Shown here piece by piece: positions 27,294 through 34,760 of a stretch of DNA of 46,649 bases. Source of the stretch: Candidatus Moranbacteria bacterium CG_4_9_14_3_um_filter_44_28. GTDB taxonomy: Bacteria > Patescibacteriota > Minisyncoccia > Moranbacterales > UBA11712. Location of the stretch: the NCBI GenBank assembly GCA_002790655.1, contig PFVO01000024.1, forward strand, positions 433 through 47,081. The letters run 5' to 3'. Under the pieces are notes generated by a model that did no database searches, was not told the DNA's origin, and saw only the letters and a list, made by a program, of their open reading frames with translations. Numbering within the stretch: the first letter of the stretch is position 1; every line of letters begins with the position of its first letter. The translations under genes were made by a program, and so were the position numbers.

Positions 27294-29525
27294 TTAAAAA
27301 TCACTCGACTTGCATTCCTCCATGTTTTCCTGAACATCAAACTCTTTGCCTTCCGCCCATTTAACGACCCCTTTTTCCCAAGCCGTGAACAAAGGGTCTT
27401 TCTGGGGCTGTTTGGGAACGTCGCCGCGGGGATTGTCTTTGTCCACCCAGTAGAGAATGGAATGAGCCGAAAAAAACTTTTTCTTGCGCTTCTTTTTTTC
27501 GCTTGGGCAGTTGTCGTTGGCCAGGCAATATTTCCCGTCCCCGATTTTGCAAACCGTCACTTCTTTTTCCTCGCCCTGAATTGTTCCGTCAAGCACCGCT
27601 TTTCCTGTTTTGATTTCCTTGGCTTCGGGAAATCTTTCAATGGCCATATTGGCAAGAGCTTTATCCATAAATTCCCGCCAGATCGGGGCGGCGACATAGA
27701 CTCCGTCGGCGCCGGCCGCCATGGGAGCGTTGTTGTTGTTCCCCGCCCAGACGCCGGCAACAAGATTGGGGGTATAGCCGACCGTCCAGGCATCCCGCCA
27801 TTCGTTGGTTGTTCCGGTTTTCACGGCTACCGGGCGGCTGTCAAAGCGAAGCGGGGAATTTGATCCGAAAACGGGAGAGCGGAGGCTATTGTCGGAAAGA
27901 ATAGCGTCAATCTGGGCGCAAATGTCCTGATCCAAAACCTTTTCGCCGGGCGAACTTTTGTATTCTTCCAAAACATTGTTTCGCGAGTCGGTGATTTTGA
28001 GAATGGCGGTCTTGTCATGGCGGATTCCATTGGTAGCGAAGGTCCCAAAAGCGCTCACGTGATCAATTAGTTTCACCTCTCCTCCGCCGAGCACAAGGGC
28101 CAAGCCGTACCTGCCACGGTTTTTGAGCGTAGTGATTCCCATTGATTGGGCGGTGTTGATGGAATTGTCCACGCCGGCCAGATAAAGCGTTTTCACGGCG
28201 GGAATATTGAGCGATCGGGCCAGCGCCTCTCTCATTTTCACCGGTCCGCTGAATTTATTGGAATAGTTTTGGGGAGTATAGGGCTGGTCTTTGGTTCCGA
28301 AATTTGTCTCAACGTCAAAAATGACCGTGTTGGGCGTATAGCCCTTTTTAAAGGCGGTGGCGTAAACATAGGGTTTAAAGGAAGAGCCTGGCTGGCGGTC
28401 GCGGACGGCTACGTTCACGTTCCCGTCAATGGATTTGTCAAAATAATCCCGCGAGCCGACCATAGCCAGAATCTGTCCCGTTTTGGGGTCAATGGCAGTG
28501 AGCGCCGCGTTTGTCGCCCGGTATTTTGTATTCGCGGCTACGCCTTTTTTTACCGTTTCCTCGGCAATTTGCTGTTTTCCCCAATCAAGGGTGGTATAAA
28601 CTTTCATCCCTCCCTCTTCAACTTGTTTTTCGCCGTATTTATTCACCAGTTGCTCTTTGACGTACATAACAAAATGCGGAGCCTGAATGCTCTCCTGAAA
28701 AGGTTTTATTTCTGCCAAAACGTCAAATTCTTTGGCGGACGCGGCCTGATTGGAGGTGATATACCCCATTTTTTGCATCTGATCGAGAACATATTCCTGC
28801 CGACCCTTGAGTTCATCAAGATGCGACCCGTAGGGGGAATAATAGGTCGGCGCTTTGGGAAGCGAAGCGAGAAGCGCCGATTCGGCCAGCTTCAGGTCTT
28901 TGGCGTCTTTTCCGAAAAAAGTTTGGGCCGCCGCCTGAATTCCGTAGGCGTTTGAACCGTAGGGAATTTCATTAAGATACATCTCAAGAATTTCATCTTT
29001 GGAAAACCTTTGTTCAAGTTCAACTGAGAGAATCACTTCTTTCACTTTGCGGGTAAAAGTTCGCTCGGGGGTGAGAACCGTATTTTTAATCAGCTGCTGG
29101 GTAATGGTCGAGCCGCCCTGGCTCACTTTTCGTCCCAGAAGATCATAAATTGCGGCCCGGGCAATGGCTTTGAATTGAACCCCATAATGCTGGTAGAAAG
29201 TCTGGTCTTCGGCGGCAATGGTCGCGGCCCGGACAATTTCACTCATATCCTTCAAAGGAATCGAGGTTCTTTTTTCTTCGCCGTGAATTTCATAAAGGAG
29301 ATACTCTCCCGTGCGGTCGTAGATTTTTGTTGATTCCACCACTTGTCTTTTGTTGAGCTTTCCCGGGCTCGGCAGGTCTTTGGCGTAATAGGCAAAAATG
29401 CCGATGGCAAAAAGCAGCCCAGCAACGGCGCACCAGATAAAAAATTTCAAAATTCTCCTCGGCCAGGATCTCTTTTTTTTGCCTTTCTTAAGGGCTTCTT
29501 TGGTGTTGTCGACGAGGTTTTTCAT
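27294..29525 (-). CDS. mrcA: Class A penicillin-binding protein (PBP1A type)
   Basis: 743 residues. A basic cytoplasmic start (KKGKKKRSWPRRI) and one membrane helix (~25-48) are followed by a GT51 glycosyltransferase domain with catalytic Glu in IAAEDQTFYQHYG and the STITQQLIKN motif. The transpeptidase domain has the active Ser in GSSFKPY, an SLN motif in ARSLNIPAVK and KTG in VKTGTTNEWRDA. It polymerises and crosslinks peptidoglycan outside the membrane. The C-terminal ~90 residues are a Cys-containing charged extension (VCKIGDGKYCLANDNCPSEK), possibly disulfide-bearing. A decayed copy of its 5' end lies 0.8 kb upstream. Confidence 0.95.
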   Translation of the reverse strand: MKNLVDNTKEALKKGKKKRSWPRRILKFFIWCAVAGLLFAIGIFAYYAKDLPSPGKLNKRQVVESTKIYDRTGEYLLYEIHGEEKRTSIPLKDMSEIVRAATIAAEDQTFYQHYGVQFKAIARAAIYDLLGRKVSQGGSTITQQLIKNTVLTPERTFTRKVKEVILSVELEQRFSKDEILEMYLNEIPYGSNAYGIQAAAQTFFGKDAKDLKLAESALLASLPKAPTYYSPYGSHLDELKGRQEYVLDQMQKMGYITSNQAASAKEFDVLAEIKPFQESIQAPHFVMYVKEQLVNKYGEKQVEEGGMKVYTTLDWGKQQIAEETVKKGVAANTKYRATNAALTAIDPKTGQILAMVGSRDYFDKSIDGNVNVAVRDRQPGSSFKPYVYATAFKKGYTPNTVIFDVETNFGTKDQPYTPQNYSNKFSGPVKMREALARSLNIPAVKTLYLAGVDNSINTAQSMGITTLKNRGRYGLALVLGGGEVKLIDHVSAFGTFATNGIRHDKTAILKITDSRNNVLEEYKSSPGEKVLDQDICAQIDAILSDNSLRSPVFGSNSPLRFDSRPVAVKTGTTNEWRDAWTVGYTPNLVAGVWAGNNNNAPMAAGADGVYVAAPIWREFMDKALANMAIERFPEAKEIKTGKAVLDGTIQGEEKEVTVCKIGDGKYCLANDNCPSEKKKRKKKFFSAHSILYWVDKDNPRGDVPKQPQKDPLFTAWEKGVVKWAEGKEFDVQENMEECKSSDF

Positions 29526-29577
29526 CTGATTGTTTTACGCAACGGTCAAGTTGGTATTTTCTATTTTCTTTACACTT

Positions 29578-30168
29578 TTATTTAAAAATAACTATTGTAA
29601 AATCTTTTTCGTGATAATGATTCCGCAGAACTATTTTCTTGGAAAGTTTCACGCAATATGCTAATAAATCCATAGAATTAGCGTAATAGATAGTCGAACC
29701 CTTCTTGTTATTCGGCGATATGCCTCCCGCCATATTAAAGGCGACTGCTTCTTTGCAATGATTAAACATTGTCTTAATTGCCCTTTTTCTAAAACTCATA
29801 GTTTTTTTTCCATAATTGCTGTTTAAAGCTCCGCAACAAATTATGATATCAAATTTTTTCTTCAGCGGATTTTTAAAATAATTTCCCGTGACAAAATCAT
29901 ATTCTGGGTATCTTTTTTTAGCTTCTTGAATAAACTCCTTCATAATGTCAATGCCGGTATATTTGAATGAGGTGCTTTTACTGAATATAAAGGGAATAAT
30001 ATCTCCAAATCCGCATCCGACGTCAAGTATCGATTTATTACTGAAATTCAAATCCTTAACCAATTCTTTATATCTTATTGCAGCCGAATCATACGAATTA
30101 TACATCAACGATTTTATTGAACCTTTGTATTTTTTGAAAGCTTTCTTGTATGCCCTTTTTTTCTCCAT
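29578..30168 (-). CDS. SAM-dependent class I methyltransferase
   Basis: 196 residues. A Rossmann-type SAM site, ILDVGCGFGDIIPFI (motif I, ~47-61), with the following GIDIMKEFI (motif II) and FDIIICCGALN (motif IV). It is a small methyltransferase with an alpha-helical basic start; the substrate cannot be inferred. It lies between the two copies of the PBP 5' region, so it probably arrived with the rearrangement that duplicated them. Confidence 0.85.
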   Translation of the reverse strand: MEKKRAYKKAFKKYKGSIKSLMYNSYDSAAIRYKELVKDLNFSNKSILDVGCGFGDIIPFIFSKSTSFKYTGIDIMKEFIQEAKKRYPEYDFVTGNYFKNPLKKKFDIIICCGALNSNYGKKTMSFRKRAIKTMFNHCKEAVAFNMAGGISPNNKKGSTIYYANSMDLLAYCVKLSKKIVLRNHYHEKDFTIVIFK

Positions 30169-30209: not shown

Positions 30210-30320
30210 CTATTCTTTCAGATAATCGGCAAGCTGGCTAAGCTCGTCAGATATTTTATCATCTAAAGTGAAGGAAGGAAAAAAATTTACTTCTATAACA
30301 TATAGTTTTCCTCCCTGTTT
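30210..30320 (-). pseudogene. C-terminal remnant of an ATP-grasp enzyme
   Basis: An open minus-strand frame with no start codon, reading GGKLYVIEVNFFPSF then TLDDKISDELSQLADYLKE and a TAG at 30210-30212. 'VIEVN.FPSF' fits the Mg-binding ExN strand at the C-terminal end of D-Ala-D-Ala-ligase/ATP-grasp proteins. A TGA at 30321-30323 ends the frame on the upstream side. It directly abuts the decayed PBP 5' copy, giving a fused relic of two unrelated genes. Two intact ATP-grasp genes lie 1-3 kb upstream. Confidence 0.55.
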
Positions 30321-30442
30321 TCAAAATTCTCCTTAGCTAGGATTTCCTTTTTTGCCTTTCTTAGGGGCTTCTTTGGTGTTGTCTATGAGGGTTTTCATTG
30401 GGTTATATTACAAAATTGGCAAGTTATTATTTTCTCTTACCT
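30318..30442 (-). pseudogene. Decayed duplicate of the 5' end and leader of the PBP gene
   Basis: This stretch aligns base by base with 29445-29575, covering the first ~28 codons of the PBP gene and the leader before it. The shared words include CAAAATTCTCCT, GCCTTTCTTA and GGGCTTCTTTGGTGTTGTC. From an ATG at 30398 it reads MKTLIDNTKEAPKKGKKG compared with MKNLVDNTKEALKKGKKK in the intact gene, and then stops at TAG (frameshift and stop). It is not expressed as a protein. Confidence 0.8.
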
Positions 30443-30453
30443 TATAGTATATG

Positions 30454-31103
30454 TCAACCTCTATTTGCAAGTAAATATTTATCTTTTTCTTTTTCCCAAA
30501 TTTTCAAAACATGATATTTGGGAATTTGCATTTGGCTTATGTCTAACAAGCTTAACTTAAGAAGGGTAATGATATCTTGTAAATTTCCAGCTCCAAAAAA
30601 GAGTAATTTTTCTAGGCCGGCCTCTCTTAGTTTTTCTGATAAAATATATTGCTCCAAATAAGCCGTATCCTTGCTGTGGGTCAAAAATTTTTTTCGAGCA
30701 AAGCGCTTATAAAAACTCTTTAAGTTTTTGTTAGAATCTCGAAAGCGGAGATAGATTATCTGCAAGGAAGGAATTTTTACCGCCGACTTGAAAAATTCTC
30801 TCATTAAAATTTCTCCCCAGCCTCTTCCTCGATATCGGCGGGAGACCAGAAGAGCCGCTAGATTCAGCTTTGATTTATTAATAGGGGAAAGTCTGCCTAG
30901 CCTATTATCAAGCCAGTGAGTTTATTCTTATTTCCGATTGTTATGCAAAGGGGTCGTCGCTTCTTATCAGAGAAGTATTTTTTAAGGGATTTTTCATTCC
31001 ATCTTGATTTTGGAAAGTTTTGATTATGCAGGGAAAGGAGAGACAGCCTTTGCTCCCCTGAAGGCCGACACAGCAAGCCTAATTTAGTACTTCGATCAGC
31101 CAT
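30454..31103 (-). pseudogene. GNAT acetyltransferase-like gene split by a frameshift
   Basis: Two open pieces lie in one orientation. The first (ATG 31103 to TAG 30897) ends ...NKLTGLIIG; the second continues in another frame as RLSPINKSKLNLAALLVSRRYRGRGWGEILMREFF. RRYRGRGWGEIL is the GNAT motif A (RxxGxG) that binds acetyl-CoA. At the junction the DNA reads ATAATAGGCTAGGCAGA: removing one TAGGC copy restores a continuous ~215-residue protein, so a 5-base duplication is the simplest cause. The intact part beyond residue ~110 has an unusual hydrophobic extension. It follows the ATP-grasp operon by 15 bases and was probably part of it. Confidence 0.65.
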
Positions 31104-31118
31104 ATTTCTGATTGATAG

Positions 31119-32072
31119 CTACTCTATATTTTTCAATTTTAAGATAAAACTAATTATATCTTTAACAACATTTCTGGTTTTTCCGCGAGTAGGATTATAG
31201 TGAAGATATATATCAGTCTTTCCATTTATTTCGATGATGTTGAAATTCTGTTTTTTAGGATCTCTTGTTATGTCATCGCACATAACATCTATTCCTACTA
31301 AGTATTTCCAAGTTGCTTTTGCCGCTTGAACGCAGATGCGAACAGTTTCTTTATGCACGCTGCTAGTTACATCTTCAGTTTCTCCTCCTTCATTAAGAGA
31401 CGAATTTTTTCTTAAGTAGACTATCTCTCCATTTTTAGGAATGCTTCTCAGAGCATGTCCTTGCTCTTTTAACAATTTTATCAAGTTAGCATCGAAAGGA
31501 GTTTTTCTGGGAGTTTTTCTTTGCTTTTTTTTAATCAATTCCTCGACGTTATTCTTTCCATCTCCAAATACACGCGGAGGAATCAGCCTTAGCGCCCCAA
31601 GGACTTTATTTCCCAGAACTGTTAGCCGGTATTCTTTTCCACTTACCATTTCTTGAGCGATAAGTTTTGGTATTTTTTTTATCTCTCTCTTTAAAATTTT
31701 TTTCGCCTCTTTTTTTAAACTAATATCGGGGAAGATACCGATGCTTTGTGATCCCTCTGCATCTTTTATGATAATTGGATATTTTAATGAGCCTAGTTTT
31801 TTGTTCAGTTCTTTCTCGGCAATTTTTCGATAAAAGCAAACAGTTTTGGGAGTCGGAAGATTGTGTTTTTTAAGAAGAAGATAAGTTAAATCTTTAAACT
31901 TGGTTGTTTCTTCTCCTACTATTAAATTGCTGGCAATTTTGAATTTTCTAGTAGTTAAAATTCTTTTACCTTTTATTTTTATATAAAAATATCCTCTTTC
32001 AGGAATAACTTTCTCAATTTCTCCTCCCATTTGCTTGACAACTTTCTTAATAATTGGTGGATTTTTTATCAT
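31119..32072 (-). CDS. Cyanophycin-synthetase-like ATP-grasp ligase
   Basis: 317 residues. It shows the ATP-grasp fold: KYPIIIKDAEGSQSIGIF (nucleotide loop), GKEYRLTVLGNKVLGALR, a VFGDGKNNVEELIKKK segment and SLNEGGETEDVT, both typical of cyanophycin synthetase and GshAB-like ligases, and a final FNIIEINGKTDIYLHYNP with Mg-binding E and N. It lacks the Mur-ligase half of cyanophycin synthetase. Such enzymes join an amino acid to a carboxylate through an acyl phosphate. Its ATG overlaps the stop of the upstream gene by four bases (ATGA), so it is co-translated with the ligase/protease fusion. Confidence 0.85.
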   Translation of the reverse strand: MIKNPPIIKKVVKQMGGEIEKVIPERGYFYIKIKGKRILTTRKFKIASNLIVGEETTKFKDLTYLLLKKHNLPTPKTVCFYRKIAEKELNKKLGSLKYPIIIKDAEGSQSIGIFPDISLKKEAKKILKREIKKIPKLIAQEMVSGKEYRLTVLGNKVLGALRLIPPRVFGDGKNNVEELIKKKQRKTPRKTPFDANLIKLLKEQGHALRSIPKNGEIVYLRKNSSLNEGGETEDVTSSVHKETVRICVQAAKATWKYLVGIDVMCDDITRDPKKQNFNIIEINGKTDIYLHYNPTRGKTRNVVKDIISFILKLKNIE

Positions 32073-33523
32073 TTTTCTTGCGCTGGATTAATTAAAAAAT
32101 TTTTGAGGTCTCGGCGGCCGATTAGAAGAGGATATTTCAAACCGGTTCGATTGGCTATGGCAATTTTGGAAACAATGGGGATGTCGCTTAAGGCCAGATT
32201 AAGCTTAATCTCAATCCTATAAGTGGCGCCGTGCGAGGAGTAGGTTTTGGCTACTCCAATAATATCAGAATGTTGTTCAAGCCTTTTCCATGTTTCGTTA
32301 GCGCTTAAAGTCTTTATCTCCTCGTTGCTTAATGTACGATCGAGATGAAAATCTTCCCAGTATTTTACTGCCTCTTCAAAGCCTAATTTTTTAGCCAACT
32401 CTTTGTCTATTGAAGAAATTCCAGCTCCAGTATCAATTCGGGCTTCGGCTTCGATTTCCTTTTCGTCTTTGCCAGTTATTTTTACTTTCTCAATTGTTCC
32501 GATTAACTTCTTTCCCGAAATATCCTCGATTTCCTCCTCGATTTCTCCGCCGAAAAGATTCATTCCGACCGCCACGCCTTTTTCGATTGTTTTGATTTTT
32601 AGATCTTCAACTCTTCGCAATCTTCCCAAAAGCCCGTCGAGATTGGCAAGCTGAATGGAAAGTCCCGGGCGGGCGTTGAGTTCCAAAAATACCGGACCCC
32701 GGTCGCGGTCAATGGCAACGTCGGCCCCCAAAAAACCGAGTTTTGAAATTTCCTGCGCCCGGACGGCCAGAGTCAAAATATCCTTCCAGTAGGGAATTCT
32801 TATTCCCGAAAGCAAAAGTCTTGTGCCGGGGAGATATTCGATGACTTTGTTTTTTCCCTGAACGGCAGTGGTTGTGACGCCGGTTGCCAGGTCAATTCCC
32901 ACGCCGATGGCTCCCTGCTGGAGATTGGCTTTCCCGTCCGATTCGCGGGTGGGAAGCCGCAGCATTGCCATTACTGGCACTTTGTTATAAACAATTATCC
33001 TGATATCGGGAACTCCTTTGAAAGAATACGGCTTGAAAAGCTTGAGGAGCTTGAGTCTTTCTTCGAAAAAAGCAATATCGGGAACGCCGGCCAAAGAAAA
33101 GCTTCCATCGAGAATATTCTGGACATGAGTTTTAATATCCTCAATGGTGACAAGCGAACTGTCAGCTTTGATCCAGGTATCGGGCAGACTCCCGCCTGCA
33201 TCCCGCCCAAGGCGGGAAGCATCTCGGGCGGGTTTCTTCTTTCCATAAACAACCAAAATTCCCTCACCCCCGAATCCGCGATTGGGTTTCAGCACCCAGG
33301 AATCCGGAAGCGCGCCCCAGTCGAAATTTTCAAGTTCTTCGAAGCTTTTTATCTTTGCAATAACATTGGGAACGGGAAGTTCGGCTTTTTTCAAGACGCG
33401 CTTGCTGAAAAGCTTGTCGTCGGCAAGACGTCTTGCGCGGCGCAAGTTGTTGGGACGGATAAACTGAAGATTCCGGGCATTCATCCCCAAAATTTTCCGG
33501 CTGCTCTTTAAGAATGAGATCAT
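32069..33523 (-). CDS. ATP-grasp glutamate-ligase-like domain fused to a RimB-type retropepsin domain
   Basis: 484 residues. Residues ~1-310 form an 'alpha-L-glutamate ligase-like' ATP-grasp domain: VLKPNRGFGGEGIL (78-90), QQGAIGVGIDLATG (~202-214) and FLELNARPG with E281 and N283. Residues ~335-484 are a RimB/'ATP-dependent zinc protease' domain (PF05618): ARIDTGAGISS with catalytic-type D364, and NRTGLKYPLLIGRRDL near the end. In other bacteria these are separate neighbouring genes. RimB is a retropepsin that trims glutamate tails added by RimK. A GC-rich palindrome (33191-33232) adds a KKPARDASRLGRDAGGSLPD loop to the ligase domain. Confidence 0.85.
   Translation of the reverse strand: MISFLKSSRKILGMNARNLQFIRPNNLRRARRLADDKLFSKRVLKKAELPVPNVIAKIKSFEELENFDWGALPDSWVLKPNRGFGGEGILVVYGKKKPARDASRLGRDAGGSLPDTWIKADSSLVTIEDIKTHVQNILDGSFSLAGVPDIAFFEERLKLLKLFKPYSFKGVPDIRIIVYNKVPVMAMLRLPTRESDGKANLQQGAIGVGIDLATGVTTTAVQGKNKVIEYLPGTRLLLSGIRIPYWKDILTLAVRAQEISKLGFLGADVAIDRDRGPVFLELNARPGLSIQLANLDGLLGRLRRVEDLKIKTIEKGVAVGMNLFGGEIEEEIEDISGKKLIGTIEKVKITGKDEKEIEAEARIDTGAGISSIDKELAKKLGFEEAVKYWEDFHLDRTLSNEEIKTLSANETWKRLEQHSDIIGVAKTYSSHGATYRIEIKLNLALSDIPIVSKIAIANRTGLKYPLLIGRRDLKNFLINPAQEK
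33191..33232. repeat. In-frame CCCGCC palindromic element in the ligase gene
   Basis: CCCGCC-TGCAT-CCCGCC-CAA-GGCGGG-AAGCATCTC-GGGCGGG gives nested stems. The insertion keeps the frame and adds roughly 20 hydrophilic residues where related ATP-grasp proteins would run straight through (from memory of the family). Confidence 0.65.
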
Positions 33524-34164
33524 CGGGGTTTCAATATTTGCCTAAAGCGAAAGTATTCGGAAATGCGAAGCCCGGTCCATTTGCCAAGAAAGATGTTTAT
33601 CGGGATGGTTAGCAGGCTTATCCAAGGATATTGGAGAATAGCGCTGATGAGAAAATGCCAGCTGGCGATGTAATAACCAATGATGGAAATGAGGAGCGTT
33701 TCAAAAGCGAGAATCACCGCGGCCCGGCCGCCCTTTTCAATCTGAACGGCGACAAACTTTTCAACGAGCGTTATCATGATGAGAATCGGAAAAATGCTGA
33801 CGCTTGCAAGCCCCGTGCGATTGAAAGTCCCGCCGACGAAAAGCAAAAGAAGAATCGAAAAGCCGACAATGGTAATCATTATGGCGACGCGGGGGAGATA
33901 AAGGAGGCGGGCCCGCTTCAGAATGAAGCGTGTTAGTGTCCCGACAACAATTACGGTGACGAAAATGGTAATTCCGTATTTGATTTGATTGGTGGCCAGA
34001 AGCGCGAAAGTGATTATGGCCGGGGTATAAATTCCGAAAGCTTTTATTCCGATAACTTGCCGGAAAAAAGCGATGACAGTAACGATAATCGGCAAGATTA
34101 AAACCAGAACGAGCGTGTCGAGGGGAATCCCGTTGGCAAGAGCGAGAGTTATAAATTGATTCAT
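33520..34164 (-). CDS. 7-TM protein of the inactive-transglutaminase-associated family
   Basis: 214 residues, nearly all membrane: about seven helices, starting MNQFITLALANGIPLDTLVLVLILPI and with the family-typical FGIYTPAIITFAL, ARLLYLPRVAIMITIV and RISEYFRF segments. In other bacteria this 7-TM module (PF14402) is usually fused to an inactive transglutaminase domain and encoded beside an alpha-L-glutamate-ligase-like and a RimB-like gene. Here the soluble domain is gone. It overlaps the ligase/protease gene by four bases (ATGA). It probably anchors that enzyme at the membrane (inference). Confidence 0.8.
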   Translation of the reverse strand: MNQFITLALANGIPLDTLVLVLILPIIVTVIAFFRQVIGIKAFGIYTPAIITFALLATNQIKYGITIFVTVIVVGTLTRFILKRARLLYLPRVAIMITIVGFSILLLLFVGGTFNRTGLASVSIFPILIMITLVEKFVAVQIEKGGRAAVILAFETLLISIIGYYIASWHFLISAILQYPWISLLTIPINIFLGKWTGLRISEYFRFRQILKPR

Positions 34165-34249
34165 AGGTTTTGATAATTAGTAAAAAATAAAAAAAGCCCC
34201 TTTTCGCCTAAATAGTACCGAATTTCAGGGGGTTTGTCAATGGAAAATC

Positions 34250-34286
34250 AAGACTAAGCCCTAGGAAATTACTAAGACTTAGTCTT
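34250..34286. terminator. Inverted repeat at the 3' end of ruvC
   Basis: AAGACTAAG and CTTAGTCTT form a perfect 9-bp stem around a 19-base loop, overlapping the last codons of ruvC on the minus strand; TTGATTTT follows on that strand. Terminator or attenuator; the gap to the 7-TM gene holds nothing else clear. Confidence 0.5.
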
Positions 34287-34760
34287 GGGAAAGCGGCGCG
34301 AATTAATATGGCATATCGCTATCGCCGTTGCGTCAGCTGCGTCATCCGGTTTGAGAGTATTTTTCAGTTTCAAAACATTTTTCACCATTATCTGGATTTG
34401 TCTTTTGTCCGCCCGCCCGTAGCCGGTGAGAGCCTGTTTCACCTGAAGAGGAGTGTAGGAAAAAAGAGGCAGTTTATTTTTCTTGATTTTGTACAAAATT
34501 ACCCCCCGGGATTGAGCGACCGTTATAGCGGTTTTCAGGTTCTTGAAAAAAAATAAATCCTCAACAGCGACTTCCCGCGGTTTATGTTTTTTAATTAACG
34601 TGGCGATGTCTTCTCCAATCTCAACCAGCCGGTCAGCATCGGATTTCAATTTGCTCGTGTTAATACAGCCGCAGGCGATAAGCCGCGGCTCTCCCTTTTT
34701 TTCTTCAACCACCGCCCAGCCAGTGATGGCTGTGCCGGGATCGATTCCTAGAATTTTCAT
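34272..34760 (-). CDS. ruvC: Holliday junction resolvase RuvC
   Basis: 162 residues from ATG 34760 (an ATG three codons upstream at 34769 gives the same frame). Catalytic acidic residues: D7 in ILGIDPG, E in VAVEDLFFFKN, and the DAADATAIAICH end. It cuts Holliday junctions made by RuvAB branch migration. ruvB lies ~6 kb away in the window; ruvA was not seen. No partner is next to it, and it precedes the 7-TM operon on the same strand. Confidence 0.95.
   Translation of the reverse strand: MKILGIDPGTAITGWAVVEEKKGEPRLIACGCINTSKLKSDADRLVEIGEDIATLIKKHKPREVAVEDLFFFKNLKTAITVAQSRGVILYKIKKNKLPLFSYTPLQVKQALTGYGRADKRQIQIMVKNVLKLKNTLKPDDAADATAIAICHINSRRFPKTKS

Follow-up and report, generated by a model that had tools for sequence, protein, structure and literature searches.

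The 46,649-nucleotide stretch of DNA analysed here (the window; contig PFVO01000024.1 of Candidatus Moranbacteria bacterium CG_4_9_14_3_um_filter_44_28, an ultra-small bacterium) carries at 31119-34164 an operon for a seven-transmembrane (7TM) protein, a chain in which an ATP-grasp ligase is joined to a retropepsin, and a second ATP-grasp ligase. The homologous proteins are encoded in the rlo operon (RloA-RloB-RloC) of Gammaproteobacteria including Pseudomonas aeruginosa, which was described in 2025 (PMC12239564). The anatomy of the operon and its homology to Rlo can be regarded as practically certain. We somewhat favour the reading, built on analogy, that it is a variant of Rlo belonging to the candidate phyla radiation (CPR), in which the writer and the eraser of a glutamate tail would be united in a single cytoplasmic chain with a membrane partner.

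The ligase-retropepsin chain and its putative membrane partner

The ligase domain of the fusion was recognized by PF14397 in the Pfam search (220.9 bits, amino acids (aa) 17-306) and by TIGR02291 in the NCBIfam search (275.8 bits against a curated cut-off of 314.2), and it is 41% identical to an alpha-L-glutamate ligase-like protein of Legionella. The AlphaFold2 (AF2) model of the fusion protein reached a predicted local distance difference test (pLDDT) score of 86, and the best matches of the structure search were RimK and cyanophycin synthetase. Lys79, Asp268, Glu281 and Asn283 vary little or not at all in the alignment, and the active-site residues were intact in 88 of the 89 ligases found in our phylum sample (see below). 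In the fused domain PF05618 scored 36.3 bits (aa 341-476; Pfam), the RloA3 profile 35.0 bits as against 15.3 bits for RimB (NCBIfam), and an RloA-type homologue from Legionella aligned with a probability of 96.7%. The first-pass annotation had described an ATP-grasp ligase joined to a RimB-type retropepsin: the fusion stood, but the ligase is of the RloC type (TIGR02291), not RimK, and the protease is nearer to RloA3 than to RimB. Asp364, Glu281 and Asn283, which had been singled out for checking, are all intact.

Alignment to the structures 9g58/9g59 placed Arg362, Arg436 and Arg459 at the positions of Lys46, Arg114 and Arg137 of RloA. Arg362 is replaced by Lys in most relatives, the spacing of 23 residues between Arg436 and Arg459 equals that of Arg114 and Arg137, and it was demonstrated by mutagenesis that the latter two play a part in poly-Glu cleavage by RloA (PMC12239564). 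The full retropepsin motif with both arginines is present in 78 of 81 close homologues. The exceptions are loci L101, L102 and L103 (Dojkabacteria/Patescibacteria), where both substrate arginines were lost together and, in L101 and L102, the catalytic Asp as well; judging from these residues, a predicted pseudo-peptidase is retained there on an intact ligase.

The 7TM protein matched PF14402 (100.7 bits, Pfam) and an RloB-type protein of Legionella (hhalign 99.3%, 27% identity over 197 columns), and its AF2 model is all helical (pLDDT 87). The match begins only at position 305 of the 508 positions of the RloB profile, hence the transglutaminase part is absent, and with 214 aa the protein indeed lacks the usual soluble domain, as had been noted. 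In several CPR lineages the 7TM protein carries a PKD domain and a signal-like segment, from which its N-terminus would be predicted to lie outside the cell. At L093:4424-5977, L142:5905-7443 and L154:6885-8459 the RloB-like 7TM protein has a PKD domain at its N-terminus, where RloB has the inactive transglutaminase.

Two further observations concern these genes. The stretch 33165-33250 encodes a lineage-specific, low-confidence insert of the fusion (about aa 105-117) around the perfect palindrome CCCGCCCAAGGCGGG, and unrelated-looking inserts occupy the same position in loci L040, L058 and L075. In Woesebacteria the 7TM gene is directly preceded by a conserved small open reading frame (ORF) for an excisionase/MerR-like DNA-binding protein (L100:4817-5026, L104:4828-5055, L105:4551-4763, L110:4803-5021).

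Distribution and replacement of the peptidase

Two samples were searched, 96 relatives from the order of the window and an even selection of 287 genomes across the phylum. The fusion was found in 93 of the 96 relatives, most full-length copies being 57-73% identical. In the phylum sample 89 genomes (about 31%) gave a strong ligase match; PF14402 was detected in 88 of the 287, all 88 carry the ligase, the two genes are adjacent, and thus 88 of the 89 ligase genomes possess the 7TM protein. The homologues accordingly co-occur almost perfectly, as a linked system had been expected to do, and since related genomes repeat this order of neighbours throughout, in other CPR lineages as well, the operon arrangement is far beyond chance. 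The spread is patchy: no sampled genome of the window's class outside its own order gave a strong ligase match. The named loci belong to Moranbacteria, Falkowbacteria, Kerfeldbacteria, Woesebacteria, Shapirobacteria, Woykebacteria and Dojkabacteria. Outside CPR the plasmid search returned stand-alone ligases only, and a Legionella plasmid carries rloA-rloB-rloC as separate adjacent genes; the absence of the fusion there is unproven, because the lone scan of a genome collection used patterns of close relatives. Peptide-modification roles were reportedly predicted for such gene neighbours by Iyer et al. in 2009; no description of the system in CPR was found in the literature searched, to which neither that paper nor preprints belonged. 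Many related lineages carry the unit, with helper enzymes that can be exchanged, so that it has the look of a peptide-tail system which is widespread but has gone undescribed.

The ligase chain of about ten families, mostly 770-840 aa long, continues through a decayed retropepsin into a MATCAP metallocarboxypeptidase domain (PF08014), whose HExxxH zinc motif was kept in 22 of 22 fused proteins examined. The retropepsin residues are degraded in 24 of 24 genomes with a fused MATCAP and in 13 of 20 with an adjacent one, but in only 2 of 41 without MATCAP fused or nearby, and both of these come from a family in which MATCAP is otherwise adjacent. In the phylum sample MATCAP was present in 52 of 89 ligase-positive genomes versus 10 of 198 ligase-negative ones. 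On the ligase tree the three to four retropepsin losses all fall on MATCAP-bearing lineages. RimB and RloA cut poly-Glu experimentally (RloA: PMC12239564), and human TMCP/MATCAP removes C-terminal residues of tubulin and shortens post-translational glutamate chains (PMC10499314), two unrelated folds with one activity in common.

Some attempts to refine this history did not succeed. A statistical case from independent pairs (two to three concordant and none discordant of 7) was underpowered, two separate MATCAP fusions had to be given up because a single origin was not rejected (p value of the approximately unbiased test, p-AU, 0.71), and one clade for all degraded retropepsins was only marginally rejected (p-AU 0.04). 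At L149:4411-7173 a single 921-aa chain combines the RloC-type ligase, an intact retropepsin and a C-terminal second ATP-grasp domain, and adjoins a MATCAP gene.

Locus anatomy and the hypervariable cassette

The features of the locus are collected in Table 1. The coordinates given earlier for the three genes proved exact, and both four-base overlaps (33520-33523 and 32069-32072) were seen. The candidate terminator and promoter between ruvC and the 7TM gene are consistent with a separate transcription unit. The GNAT ORF, which starts at 31103 after a gap of 15 bases, is frameshifted as had been noticed: in tblastn its homologues match with residues 1-67 in one frame and with 64-153 in another, which places the break near 30895-30900. 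An intact relative matched TIGR01575 with 52.6 bits.

Table 1. Position and strand of the operon, its domains and adjoining features in the window
Feature	Position	Strand	Remarks
7TM protein gene, 214 aa	33520..34164	-	RloB-like membrane domain PF14402, no transglutaminase domain
Ligase-retropepsin fusion gene, RloC-RloA type, 484 aa	32069..33523	-	
ATP-grasp ligase domain of the fusion, aa 8-309; K79, D268, E281, N283	32597..33502	-	
Retropepsin domain of the fusion, aa 341-476; catalytic D364 with R362, R436, R459	32096..32503	-	
Second ATP-grasp ligase (cluster AG7), cyanophycin-synthetase/GshAB-like, 317 aa	31119..32072	-	
GNAT acetyltransferase remnant, frameshifted; RimI-like relatives intact at other loci	30637..31103	-	
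Remnant of the C-terminus of a cassette protein (~640 aa, cluster c19)	30463..30687	-	
S-adenosylmethionine (SAM) methyltransferase, cassette gene	29578..30168	-	Methyltransf_31, 44.7 bits
Candidate promoter TTGACA-17-TACTAT, 5' of the 7TM gene	34212..34240	-	10/12 consensus match; by itself no evidence of function
Candidate terminator of the upstream ruvC	34249..34287	-	16-pair stem, T-rich tail

The second ATP-grasp protein, which resembles GshAB and the middle domain of cyanophycin synthetase, matched RimK and Dala_Dala_lig_C in Pfam, and in NCBIfam it matched cya_phycin_syn with 173 bits over positions 205-471 of 862 only, below the cut-off of 850; its profile found the cyanophycin synthetase structures with an E value of 5e-86. 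Its match to the N-acetylglutaminylglutamine synthetase profile TIGR03103 (99.6 bits, cut-off 569) is confined to the ATP-grasp part, the GNAT being separate and broken. Lys60, Lys103, Arg149, Glu281 and Asn283 are invariant in 29 homologues. The presence of a second ligase, claimed in the first-pass annotation, was thus borne out, but it is not a fixed part of the system: the cassette is hypervariable, and this ligase is one of its options. On the 3' side of the fusion there are up to five ATP-grasp genes, falling into at least four clusters (RimK-like, YheCD/GshB-like, CphA/GshAB-like and biotin-carboxylase-like), to which some loci add MATCAP, YdjC, GT4, RimI-like GNAT, FemAB-like GNAT, C45-type AAT or methyltransferase genes. 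Among 44 complete intervals from the fusion to the penicillin-binding protein (PBP) gene 37 gene orders were counted, and GNAT is present in only 6 of 80 loci.

The window itself displays the turnover of this cassette: besides the broken GNAT and the truncated c19 gene it has a methyltransferase related, among the loci studied, to genes of Woesebacteria operons, and a decayed copy of the PBP 5' end. The c19 remnant shares 39-54% identity with the C-terminal ~75 residues of the c19 proteins encoded at other loci, and relatives of the methyltransferase (43-51% identical) stand after the ligases in Woesebacteria L105, L106 and L108. About 126 bases spanning the PBP gene start are duplicated with 80-86% identity at 29445-29570 and 30319-30443, flanking the methyltransferase gene, and the decayed second copy looks like the scar of a cassette insertion beside the PBP gene. 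The c19 protein (~640 aa, L067:8411-10336) occurs at 8 loci including the remnant in the window, and its full sequence had no match in Pfam or NCBIfam.

Proposed function and relation to known systems

Since RloA/RimB and the eukaryotic MATCAP both trim poly-glutamate experimentally, we infer a writer and eraser of Glu tails. The RloC-type ATP-grasp would extend a cytoplasmic peptide or protein at its C-terminal carboxylate by amino acids, of which glutamate is the most likely, and the fused retropepsin, or in other lineages the fused MATCAP, would cut the tail back; because the ligase adds and the fused peptidase removes, a single chain could set the tail length. The 7TM protein would be the obligate membrane partner, which probably anchors, exports or senses the product, while the species-specific extra ligases and other enzymes may cap or extend the tail. 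The earlier proposal of a membrane-tethered system adding and possibly trimming amino acids gained in one respect, namely the putative writer/eraser chain, since other lineages fuse the same ligase to a second, unrelated tail-trimming peptidase. For glutamate as the added amino acid the chances seem to us about even, and export or surface display of the product is proposed only tentatively. A further idea, which we hold to be rather doubtful, is that the ligase was joined to an eraser, the eraser was swapped for a non-homologous enzyme of matching activity, and the 7TM-ligase core feeds species-specific ligases, so that each species would build peptide tails or surface peptides of its own, which might serve contact with hosts.

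Several findings weigh against a glutamate writer/eraser. The score of the ligase falls under the curated cut-off of TIGR02291, therefore glutamate specificity is not established, and the RimBK hybrid of Desulfotalea psychrophila cut poly-Glu yet did not glutamylate RpsF (PMC11957791). No acceptor was found, the ribosomal protein S6 of this genome ending in ...EETPG and not in Glu. The peptidase of the fusion has no export signal, whereas Pseudomonas RloA is exported, and no solved fold was matched with confidence by the 7TM protein, the best structure match being NqrD/RnfA with an unusable E value of about 0.6. Intact retropepsin stands alongside an adjacent MATCAP in 7 of 20 cases, and the correlation of the peptidase swap consists of three to four independent losses, without formal significance after correction. 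A RimK/S6 modification role was rejected: no RimK-family match exists in the genome beyond the two operon ligases, and S6 lacks a terminal Glu.

The Moranbacteria cassette abuts a PBP gene in 45 loci and contains glycosyltransferases and YdjC deacetylases, to which one lineage adds FemAB-like GNATs, and loss of RloA in Pseudomonas leads to cell-shape and beta-lactam phenotypes; these data would fit ligases that assemble the side chain or cross-bridge of a lipid-linked muropeptide or glycopolymer, a product that the 7TM protein would handle. The link is only local, however, because Woesebacteria and others have no PBP at the locus, the module standing beside ribosomal protein genes, and the known substrates of these peptidases are Glu tails, not muropeptides, so that a cell-wall or surface-polymer system appears unlikely. 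A soluble small peptide (for example an osmolyte of the N-acetylated dipeptide type or a thiol resembling glutathione), acetylated by the GNAT, is decidedly improbable: AG7 does match the profiles of GshAB and of N-acetylglutaminylglutamine synthetase, some loci continue with a GNAT and rlo genes influence hypo-osmotic tolerance, but the invariant partner is a membrane protein, the GNAT is rare and broken in the window, and peptidases for Glu tails would not be expected.

That the retropepsin chiefly serves the ligase as an allosteric or dimerisation subunit and is no eraser might be argued from the stimulation of RimK by RimB (PMC11957791) and from the degraded retropepsin being kept between ligase and MATCAP, not deleted. 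The catalytic Asp and the substrate arginines were kept in 39 of 41 genomes without fused or nearby MATCAP, therefore selection for catalysis is needed, and we give this explanation a slim chance. Graspetide clusters were reported in CPR bacteria (PMC8939145); a RiPP (ribosomally synthesised and post-translationally modified peptide) cluster with ATP-grasp maturases was nevertheless discarded as extremely improbable, since none of the 354 candidate small ORFs at 81 loci is a conserved, precursor-like gene of the operon, and the ligases score best with the RloC, RimK, CphA and GshAB families.

A glutamate-type tail whose length needs trimming is the role suggested by the fusion and the peptidase replacement. 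The compact version of Rlo extends the range of the system, 96% of RloB matches being in Proteobacteria, to which rlo was described as almost confined (PMC12239564), to about a third of the sampled CPR genomes, and it is near-universal in one order of reduced genomes. The suggested role allows a direct biochemical test in a single polypeptide, and it offers an entry to the ways in which CPR cells assemble their envelope or tail peptides.

Among known systems, RimK and RimB, the pair of ribosomal S6 glutamylation, likewise comprise a glutamate-tail writer and an eraser of the same peptidase superfamily, but they are separate proteins with another ATP-grasp family and no membrane partner. The RimBK hybrid, reported in 2025 with RimB N-terminal to the RimK ligase (PMC11957791), also combines a retropepsin with an ATP-grasp of the glutamate-ligase type in a single chain; the domain order here is opposite, the ligase is of RloC/ATPgrasp_ST type with only 33 bits to the RimK profile (Pfam), and no 7TM partner was described for RimBK. 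In the tubulin system TTLL glutamylases, ATP-grasp tail writers, are opposed by the PF08014 carboxypeptidase TMCP (MATCAP) (PMC10499314), but these are separate eukaryotic proteins acting on tubulin, so the logic is analogous and membership is not implied. CphA shares a homologous ATP-grasp domain with the second ligase, which consists of that domain only, whereas CphA is multidomain with a Mur-ligase-like domain.

The closest relative is the rlo operon, the experimentally studied precedent, left unnamed earlier, for separate 7TM, ligase and RimB-like neighbours in other bacteria; there the hypo-osmotic growth defect caused by RloA loss is rescued by losing RloB or RloC (PMC12239564). Homologous ligase, 7TM domain and retropepsin are encoded together in both, and the catalytic Asp (DTG motif) and the poly-Glu-binding residues are kept. 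The CPR chain fuses ligase and retropepsin in the order C-A, whereas RloA is separate, has a signal peptide and is secreted; RloB has an inactive transglutaminase domain where the CPR protein has PKD or nothing; and CPR loci add extra ATP-grasp ligases, some lineages swapping in MATCAP. Because the transglutaminase domain and the separate secreted peptidase are missing, the CPR operon is better called a variant of Rlo than the rlo operon proper, one which may work by a Rim/Rlo-like writing and erasing of tails.

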